Below, in pieces: positions 58,451-60,690 of a stretch of 64,000 bases of DNA. The stretch is from an uncultured Trueperaceae bacterium (GTDB lineage Bacteria; Deinococcota; Deinococci; Deinococcales; Trueperaceae). Location: positions 124,001 through 188,000 of the forward strand of contig CALMXZ010000012.1 of NCBI GenBank assembly GCA_937873495.1. The letters are read 5' to 3'. The position numbers and the translations under genes were made by a program. The notes under the pieces were generated by a model, which was given only the letters and a program-made list of their open reading frames with translations, had not been told where the DNA came from and did not search any database. Every line of letters begins with the position of its first letter. Position 1 is the first letter of the stretch.

Positions 58451-59167
58451 TCATTCGTCGCTGCCGGGAGGGTCCGGCTCTTCGCCGCCATCGTAACCGG
58501 CTCCGAACTCCTCGGTCGTTCCCGCCGCTTCCTCCGCCTGCTCGCCCGCCGCGGGGGCGACCGGCTTGAGCGGGTTCACCTCGAGTACGCGCCCGGGGAA
58601 GAGCTCCTGCAGCCTCGCGAACGCCCTGCCCTCCACTGTGTCGCTGGCGACGTGCGTCGGGGACGCGGTGGTGGCGCGGGCCTGGCCCCTGCCGCGCTGC
58701 CTGTCGCCGCTCCTGCCGGGCGGGGCGTGGCGTTCCGGCCGCGCGCGCGCCGGCGCCTCGGTGTCCGGTTGCTCTTCCACCGGCGCCACCGCAGCCACCT
58801 CGTCCTGGTCGAAGAGCGACTCGGCGGAGTCGGACCATAGGTCACCGGTGGCGCCGCCGAACGACGACTCGACGTCCTCGGGGATGAGGTCTTCGATGGC
58901 GCGCTGTGGCGCGGCCGGGTGTGGCTCGATCGCCTGTGGCGCCGCTGCCGGTGGTTCCATCGCCGGTGGCTCGATCGTCTGCCGCACGATCGTCTGCGGC
59001 CCCGCGAGGCTCGGCTCGGGCGCTTCACCCGGTGCGGCTTCCGCGACGCCTGTCCCCGGCGCGCCCGAGGCCACCTCCGGGATCGCGCGCGGCGGCCGCG
59101 CGGCCGTACGCTGCTCTTCTCTGGTCGAGGGCTTGGGCGGAGCGGCCGGCGCGCGCTCCGTCAGGCT
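58451..59167 (-). CDS. dnaX: dnaX tau-specific extension in the -1 frame
   Basis: Shifting one base back at the A7 run (next codon 59167-59165, AGC) opens 238 sense codons, from SLTERAPAAPPKPS to TGA at 58451-58453, with no stop between. The stretch is Pro/Ala/Glu-rich, and its end contains FARLQELFPGRVLEVNPLK, a more structured segment, so it looks like the C-terminal part of tau that contacts the polymerase and helicase. Together with 508 codons in the normal frame this gives a protein of 746 residues. A homopolymer length error (A8 in the real genome) would make it a single frame. Confidence 0.75.
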   Translation of the reverse strand, partial: SLTERAPAAPPKPSTREEQRTAARPPRAIPEVASGAPGTGVAEAAPGEAPEPSLAGPQTIVRQTIEPPAMEPPAAAPQAIEPHPAAPQRAIEDLIPEDVESSFGGATGDLWSDSAESLFDQDEVAAVAPVEEQPDTEAPARARPERHAPPGRSGDRQRGRGQARATTASPTHVASDTVEGRAFARLQELFPGRVLEVNPLKPVAPAAGEQAEEAAGTTEEFGAGYDGGEEPDPPGSDE

Positions 59168-59173
59168 TTTTTT
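59138..59173 (-). promoter_or_regulatory. -1 frameshift or slippage site in dnaX
   Basis: The heptamer A_AAA_AAA (59173-59167, reading CCA AAA AAA GCC TGA) allows both tRNAs to slip one base. A hairpin, CGGAGCG (59160-59154) with CGCTCCG (59144-59138), starts 6 nt downstream, the spacing seen in stimulated -1 frameshifting. A GGACC/GGTCC hairpin also lies just upstream. RNA polymerase slippage on the A run is the alternative. Confidence 0.65.
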
Positions 59174-60690
59174 GGACCACCGCCCGGTCCGTCGACTTCG
59201 ATCTCGTAGCCGGCGCCAGCGACGTCGGTCACCAGGGCCTTGAGCTCCTCCAGGCGTATCAGGAGCTGCTTGTGGTGGAACTCGTTGCTATCGGGGTAGG
59301 CGATGCGCACGGTCCGGCCGACCACCTCGACCCTGGCGGGCGCGAGGAACGCTTTCAGGCGCACGTCGGCCTTGCTGCGCACGGCATGCCAGGAGAAGCT
59401 CGCCTCGCCCTGCTGACGCTCCGGCTGCCTGGGCCTGGCGTCCGCGGCGCCGGTCGGTTCGCCGGCGCGCCGCGGCTGGGTGGGAGCGGCGGCTTGCGGC
59501 TCGCCGTCCGGCGCTCGTCCGCCCCGCGCCTCGGCGTTCGGCTCGGCGGGGGCCGCCTCGCGCCCGGCGTGGGTGGCGGGTGGCGGCGCGGCGGTGTCGG
59601 CGCCGGGAAGGTAGGACCGCTCGGCGGGCGCCGCCTGGGCCGCGAAGGCCGCGGGAACGTTGCCGCGCAACGCGTTACGCGCCTTGATTAGCGCCACCTC
59701 GAGCGAGTAGAGGTCGTCGTGGCGCACGAACCGCTCCTGCTCGTCGTCCAGGGCGTGCAGCAGGCGCAGGAGATCGTCCTCCCCGAGCTCGAGCCACGGC
59801 GCTCCCCCGAGCCGGGCGTGCAGCGCGTCTCGCAACGTGCGCGCCAACTGCTCGGCCAAGGTGCGCGGCGCGAACCCGGCGCGGTAGAGGCCGGAAGCCT
59901 GCTCGAGCAGAGCGTGCAGGTCGCCGCCGGCGAGCGCCTCGGCCATGGCCCGCAGCCGCTCGTGCGGCGGCAGGCCGAGGGCGTCCTCGGCGCGCCGCAG
60001 CGTGATGGGCTCGCCGCCCGCGAGCAGCCTGTCGAGGAGCGACTCGGCGTCGCGCATGCCGCCGTCGGCGCTCCGCGCCACCAACTGGAGCGCAGGCGTC
60101 TCGGCGGCCACCCCGGTGGCGGCGGCGAGCCGCGCCAGCTTGCCGACGATCTCGGCGTCGGTCAAGCGTCTGAAGCGGAAGTGTTGGCACCGCGACAGGA
60201 CGGTGGGCGGCAGCCGCTCCGGCTCGGTGGTGGCGAGCACGAACAGGAGGTTGGGCGGCGGCTCCTCCAGCGTCTTGAGCAGGGCGTTCGCCGCGGCCTT
60301 GCTCAGCATGTGGGCCTCATCCAAGATCCACACGCGGCTGCCGCCCCTGATGCTGGAGAGCATGGTCCGCTCCCGCAGCTCACGCACGTCGTCGACGGAG
60401 TTGTTCGAGGCGGCGTCCATCTCGATCACGTCGGGGTGGCTGCCGGCCTGGACGAGGCGGCACGACTCGCACACGCCGCACGGGCGTTCGCTCTCGCCGG
60501 CCTCGCAGTTGACCGCCATAGCCAGCAGGCGCGCGCTCGTCGTCTTGCCGACGCCGCGTGGACCCGAGAAGAGGTACGCGTGACCGACCCGCCCGCGGCG
60601 GATCGCGGCGGTGAGCACGTCCTTGACGTGGTCCTGGCCGACGACCTCGTCGAACGTTACGGGCCGCGCGCGTTGGTAGAGAGCCGACAT
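59161..60690 (-). CDS. dnaX: DNA polymerase III gamma/tau subunit (normal frame, gamma-length)
   Basis: The normal frame gives 509 residues ending GGGPKKA. It contains the clamp-loader AAA+ domain with GPRGVGKT (43-50), a zinc module with Cys62, 71, 74 and 77, and SRC in LSRCQHFRFRR, which is the DnaX sensor and arginine-finger region. A Pro/Ala-rich linker (about 370-430) precedes a final domain ending at the A7 run. This product equals a gamma form; the tau form needs a -1 shift into the downstream frame. It heads dnaX-ybaB-recR. A TAGGCT box 11 nt upstream of ATG 60690 may be its promoter. Confidence 0.95.
   Translation of the reverse strand: MSALYQRARPVTFDEVVGQDHVKDVLTAAIRRGRVGHAYLFSGPRGVGKTTSARLLAMAVNCEAGESERPCGVCESCRLVQAGSHPDVIEMDAASNNSVDDVRELRERTMLSSIRGGSRVWILDEAHMLSKAAANALLKTLEEPPPNLLFVLATTEPERLPPTVLSRCQHFRFRRLTDAEIVGKLARLAAATGVAAETPALQLVARSADGGMRDAESLLDRLLAGGEPITLRRAEDALGLPPHERLRAMAEALAGGDLHALLEQASGLYRAGFAPRTLAEQLARTLRDALHARLGGAPWLELGEDDLLRLLHALDDEQERFVRHDDLYSLEVALIKARNALRGNVPAAFAAQAAPAERSYLPGADTAAPPPATHAGREAAPAEPNAEARGGRAPDGEPQAAAPTQPRRAGEPTGAADARPRQPERQQGEASFSWHAVRSKADVRLKAFLAPARVEVVGRTVRIAYPDSNEFHHKQLLIRLEELKALVTDVAGAGYEIEVDGPGGGPKKA

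Follow-up and report, generated by a model that had tools for sequence, protein, structure and literature searches.

Family-wide evidence pointing to programmed -1 ribosomal frameshifting in Trueperaceae dnaX, with gamma as the default and tau as the shifted product

In this study, we explored the dnaX gene in a stretch of 64,000 nucleotides from an uncultured Trueperaceae bacterium, referred to here as the window, and followed its shift site through related genomes. The arrangement of frames and signals indicates that dnaX is very probably a programmed -1 frameshift gene in which the roles of the two products are reversed, gamma being made by default and tau upon shifting, with the ribosome as the likely slipping agent. 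The same proposal had been made in an earlier note on the window and is now strongly supported by conservation within the family.

The 0-frame of dnaX encodes gamma (509 aa) on the minus strand at 59161..60690, from the ATG at 60690-60688 to a TGA at 59163-59161, and its 3' end reads ...GGT CCA AAA AAA GCC TGA, with the A7 run at 59173-59167. The -1 frame remains open for 238 codons past the two Lys codons and ends in a TGA at 58453-58451, so that the tau extension (58451..59167, minus strand) would yield a tau of 508 + 238 = 746 aa; the third frame stops 45 codons on. Both the stop right past A7 and the open -1 frame down to 58451, as reported in the earlier note, were confirmed on the minus strand. 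The encoded protein has the architecture of gamma/tau clamp-loader ATPases, matching NCBIfam PRK14963 (DNA polymerase III gamma/tau) with 698.8 bits at a cut-off of 601 and TIGR02397 with 357 bits at a cut-off of 250, and exceeding the cut-offs of Pfam DNA_pol3_delta2 and DNAX_ATPase_lid. We additionally observed a weak match to the DnaX_C domain at residues 435-498, upstream of the shift site (window 59164-60690). Judged from its sequence, gamma would thus retain a DnaX_C-like domain and be without the linker and the C-terminal helix only. Downstream of dnaX lie an ebfC/ybaB-like and then a recR-like gene, assigned by reading the translations. When the genome was searched for a second dnaX copy able to supply tau, one other match was returned, a weak one over residues 31-191, most likely the delta-prime subunit expected there, and no Rfam family was matched within 57500-62000, the region around dnaX.

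To place this layout in context, dnaX was sought in 61 related genomes and then in 39 genomes from Trueperaceae itself, with inspection of the sequence spanning the site; the loci of G002, G033 and G034, where the contig edge precedes the site, and of G061, which is broken upstream, were not counted. This comparison with relatives, suggested in the earlier note, yielded 29 Trueperaceae loci from separate genomes with the layout of the window, in which the 0 frame stops right past the shift site and tau lies in the -1 frame, open through the site in 29/29. The stop itself may be TGA, TAG or TAA, which indicates that stopping is kept and not merely the sequence. In 28 of the 29, an in-phase heptamer stands exactly one codon before this stop. 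The seven nucleotides preceding the final sense codon are A_AAA_AAA in 16 loci (one of them within A9), A_AAA_AAG in 11, G_GGA_AAA in one and AAAAATA in one (G019). Truepera radiovictrix (G017, 3,260,398 bp), for which the genome was finished at 153x on two platforms (PMC3072082), reads GTA AAA AAG CCC TAG.

Two sites depart from the common pattern. In G024 (L069), GGGAAAA stands in place of the A-run, reads in phase as G_GGA_AAA and is still accompanied by the stop and the hairpin; this is a natural swap of slippery sites. G019 (L017) reads CCG AAA AAA ATA GTC TGA, with the run in another phase and no clean heptamer for simultaneous slippage, and its -1 frame carries the tau motif despite AAA AAA ATA; the odd phase could be due to RNA polymerase slippage, P-site slippage or an assembly error. 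As a separate observation on decoding, some Trueperaceae (loci L101, L103, L104, L106) possess tRNA-Lys(CUU) in addition to tRNA-Lys(UUU), among them T. radiovictrix with A_AAA_AAG, where re-pairing of a CUU tRNA with AAA is expected to be poor. Genes for both tRNA-Lys(CUU) and tRNA-Lys(UUU) are found in G017, G010 and G025, which all carry A_AAA_AAG, and a pattern search of the window genome returned tRNA-Lys(UUU) only. G001 has both tRNA genes and carries A_AAA_AAA, and no simple rule tying the heptamer to tRNA-Lys(CUU) emerged.

The elements expected of a bacterial -1 frameshift site are present in order. The heptamer A_AAA_AAA (59167..59173, minus strand; 0 frame CC-A AAA AAA GCC TGA) is of the X_XXY_YYZ type and in phase in the window as in 28/29 loci in all, G019 being the exception. 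No other A7/T7 run and no other A6[A/G] occurs on either of the two strands of the window (64 kb, 71.5% GC), where a first-order Markov model predicts 0.075 A7/T7 runs. Starting 6 nt past the heptamer, a putative stimulatory hairpin (59138..59160, minus strand) is predicted at -16.8 kcal/mol, as the earlier note had placed it, with a shuffle z-score of only -1.6 in this GC-rich DNA. Across the family, the mean folding energy of 40-nt windows passes through a sharp minimum of about -20 kcal/mol at 6 nt past the heptamer, compared to -8 to -15 kcal/mol elsewhere within 240 nt on either side. Nearly all loci with the gamma stop are predicted to form a hairpin directly past it, in most cases opening with CGGGG or CGGAG. 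Among 11 hairpins of equal length, compared ungapped and against 500 shuffles, 92.4% of cells were paired (81.9% in shuffles), 11 cells were double-changed (4.0) and the covariation score reached 0.347 (0.151), none of which was equalled in any of the 500 shuffles; pairing fell to 46-55% when the hairpin partner was slid. Counted by base pair, double changes did not rise above the shuffle level in this set (4 vs 2.9). The downstream structure is therefore predicted in the window and covaries in relatives. Upstream, the Shine-Dalgarno-like stretch GGGCGGTGG (59177..59185, minus strand), a putative stimulator, starts 12 nt before the heptamer, and its predicted duplex with the anti-SD sequence amounts to -9.8 kcal/mol, a value reached by 5% of dnaX upstream windows. 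The family mean of this energy has its minimum 15 nt before the heptamer (-6.5 vs -2.4); the element is strong in most loci, at 12-15 nt upstream, and weak in about four (G031, G015, G008, G062). The anti-SD sequence was taken from relatives, the canonical 16S 3' end being seen in G010 and G021 only; in the window genome, a pattern search did not locate this end, its one exact match not being rRNA.

The same outcome could in principle be reached by RNA polymerase slippage, in which some transcripts gain an extra A (A8) and tau is produced by ordinary reading, as the earlier note had also considered. Thermus dnaX slips in this way on A9, Antonov et al. assigned reversed poly-A dnaX genes to slippage, even those with A7 (PMC3711429), and the outgroup loci readable through the site have tau in frame, mostly on A8 or A9, with stops near in both other frames. 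Within Trueperaceae, G007 carries A9 at the shift site, and slippage stays conceivable at loci with seven or more A's. However, the run is limited to six A's before a G in 11 of the 29 loci, and G024 presents GGGAAAA, all of which are short for slippage, while the seven-A loci share heptamer phase, stop spacing and hairpin with the six-A loci. Slippage would moreover feed the third frame as well, which has no conserved stop (3 to 287 codons on across loci), a nearby stop being conserved in the 0 frame alone, and the hairpin covaries at a fixed spacing. Ribosomal frameshifting is thus favoured, because the six-A and GGGAAAA sites are poor substrates for slippage, the hairpin is conserved together with its spacing, and a single alternative frame has been maintained as open. 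We therefore regard slippage as an improbable general explanation, which may add to frameshifting in G007.

That the -1 frame is used at all is indicated by the extension itself, whose substitutions look coding. In ten pairs within the genus, pN/pS ranged over 0.48-0.82 for the -1 frame, compared to 0.84-1.64 for the remaining frames, with an alignment guided by the -1 frame proteins that favours this frame somewhat. The extension carries a conserved C-terminal helix motif SDTVEGRAFARLQELFPGRVLEVNPL (58568..58645, minus strand), of which the core [LIV]F[PA]G occurs in the -1 frame in 28/29 loci and in the other frames in 0 and 1. A motif resembling LQxLFPGRV, borne by the -1 frame of these 28 loci, stands in the 0 frame in G009 and G012, and a related form is in frame in most outgroup loci. 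In a Thermus-like outgroup tau, the equivalent stretch gave a match to the tau chain in PDB entry 4IQJ (E = 7e-13). In that structure, the C-terminal helix of tau reportedly contacts alpha. The entry represents the tau-bound Taq Pol III alpha structure (PMC4703070). By this resemblance, the helix of the Trueperaceae extension may well be the segment that binds and holds the polymerase alpha subunit. Neither Pfam nor NCBIfam offered a model for the extension, and a search for phage relatives of it gave no match. The single exception, G036 (L022), has the tau motif in a third frame past the extension, which would fit another indel, either genuine or introduced by assembly, within the proline-rich linker.

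These data bear directly on a split gene, in which gamma would be accompanied by a separate C-terminal protein begun in the -1 frame, or on a decaying tau tail in a species that makes gamma only. A 207-codon ORF does start from GTG 59074 in the -1 frame. A separate C-terminal piece would, however, not join the polymerase to the clamp loader, neither version gives a reason to keep heptamer, stop and hairpin, and the pN/pS values, the C-terminal motif and the -1 frame open through the site in every locus speak for a maintained extension, rendering this explanation very unlikely. A sequencing or assembly error, by which the true run would be A8 and dnaX a plain tau frame, deserves even less credence: homopolymers are error-prone and in G029, the sister of G035, the frame does run through the site, but G029 also differs by substitutions (CCT AAG AAA AGC), 11 of the runs are six A's then G, stop and hairpin are conserved, and the recurrence of an identical phase, spacing and stop in different genera, at 29 loci belonging to separate genomes of which one is a finished isolate genome, excludes an error in the window and refutes the A8 reading that the earlier note had left standing.

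We propose a model of programmed -1 frameshifting in which ribosomes that keep the frame would add one more residue after Lys-Lys and stop, releasing a gamma of 509 aa with the ATPase clamp-loader domains and the DnaX_C-like domain. The hairpin would hold the ribosome up and the upstream SD-like stretch would help the slip, upon which tRNA-Lys on A_AAA_AAA would move back by one base into the -1 frame, leading to the tau of 746 aa, whose C-terminal helix could then bind the alpha subunit. By analogy with E. coli, the slip frequency might be about half. Counting against this model, the window hairpin is not far beyond shuffles and the SD-like element is weak in several relatives; A_AAA_AAA is a weaker heptamer than A_AAA_AAG in E. 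coli (PMC5009743), and early work in that species described G_GGA_AAA as inefficient (PMC4066793).

The distribution of site types suggests an eventful history. In the DnaX tree, Trueperaceae form one clade (98/96), and in view of the outgroup layout the roles were probably switched once at its base, for which a single-base change in the run would be the easiest route; subsequent reversals to an in-frame tau in a few members are the simplest account of the remainder. G012 (L034), which is AT-rich, reads tau in frame on A9 while its other two frames meet stops after 4 and 17 nt, and it groups with the A6G species G022 and G006 (100/99), so that a Thermus-type layout was apparently regained inside the frameshifting clade. 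G009 (L007) has tau in frame and no run, and G029 (L021/L125) reads CCT AAG AAA AGC GTG in the tau frame, its contig ending soon after, next to G035 on the tree, which has A7; in G014 no slip site occurs up to the contig end. Recoding seems lost in G009 and G029, where gamma may be dispensable or made in another way. An uninterrupted tau frame in relatives, which the earlier note had named, together with the lack of a gamma-length protein, as evidence against its proposal, is found in some of them (G009, G012, G029), and 29 loci stop at the site. A6G is represented on each of the two basal branches of Trueperaceae, suggesting that A_AAA_AAG may have come first among the heptamers. Taken together, we lean towards a scenario in which, within one phylum, polymerase slippage with tau as default (A8/A9) gave way to ribosomal frameshifting with the roles swapped and returned at least once (G012, A9, nested among A6G), with G009, G029 and perhaps G014 having dropped recoding, so that the recoding machine and the default product would be interchangeable as long as tau is made.

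Consequently, most Trueperaceae would rely on frameshifting for tau, the subunit that keeps the polymerases attached to the replisome. If so, a central replication subunit is not predictable from the plain ORF, as ORF calling yields gamma only. The evolutionary back-and-forth is the more interesting part, beyond the reversed layout itself: natural variants with six A's, seven A's, G_GGA_AAA, lost sites and an A9 reversion render a switch between transcriptional and ribosomal recoding accessible to comparison, and they suggest that some reversed dnaX genes assigned to slippage may use the ribosome instead.

Among known systems, E. coli dnaX displays the same parts in the same order, an SD-like element (AGGGAG), A_AAA_AAG (A_AAA_AAA in the window), a short spacer and a downstream stem-loop (PMC5009743), with gamma ending at once after the shift. 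The stop lies in the other frame, however, tau being the 0-frame and gamma the shifted product in E. coli, and the C-terminal domain of E. coli tau was reported not to be homologous to that of Taq tau (PMC4703070). Thermus thermophilus, of the same phylum, shares a related tau C-terminal helix and an A-run at about the same place past the DnaX_C-like domain, but reads tau in frame on A9, makes gamma by transcriptional slippage and has close stops in each of the other frames; the pattern of at least eight A's with tau in frame and near stops is not that of the window, which has A7 and gamma in frame. Closest are the reversed dnaX genes, in which a 0-frame gamma stop lies just past the shift site and tau needs recoding, reported by Antonov et al. 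in 2013 for 17 genes from 12 genera including Chloroherpeton and Chlorobium (PMC3711429) and by Atkins et al. in 2016, who noted a minority of bacteria in which frameshifting apparently gives rise to tau, with Chlorobium phaeobacteroides as a case (PMC5009743). The main text of the former makes no mention of Truepera, and our search found no open paper joining Truepera, dnaX, frameshift and tau. The reversed genes with poly-A (A7-A10) were ascribed by Antonov et al. to transcriptional slippage, whereas Trueperaceae feature E. coli-type signals on A6G or A7 in most of the family. The reversed layout is therefore already described, a precedent of which the earlier note was unaware, and Trueperaceae constitute a new, well-supported and family-wide case of it.
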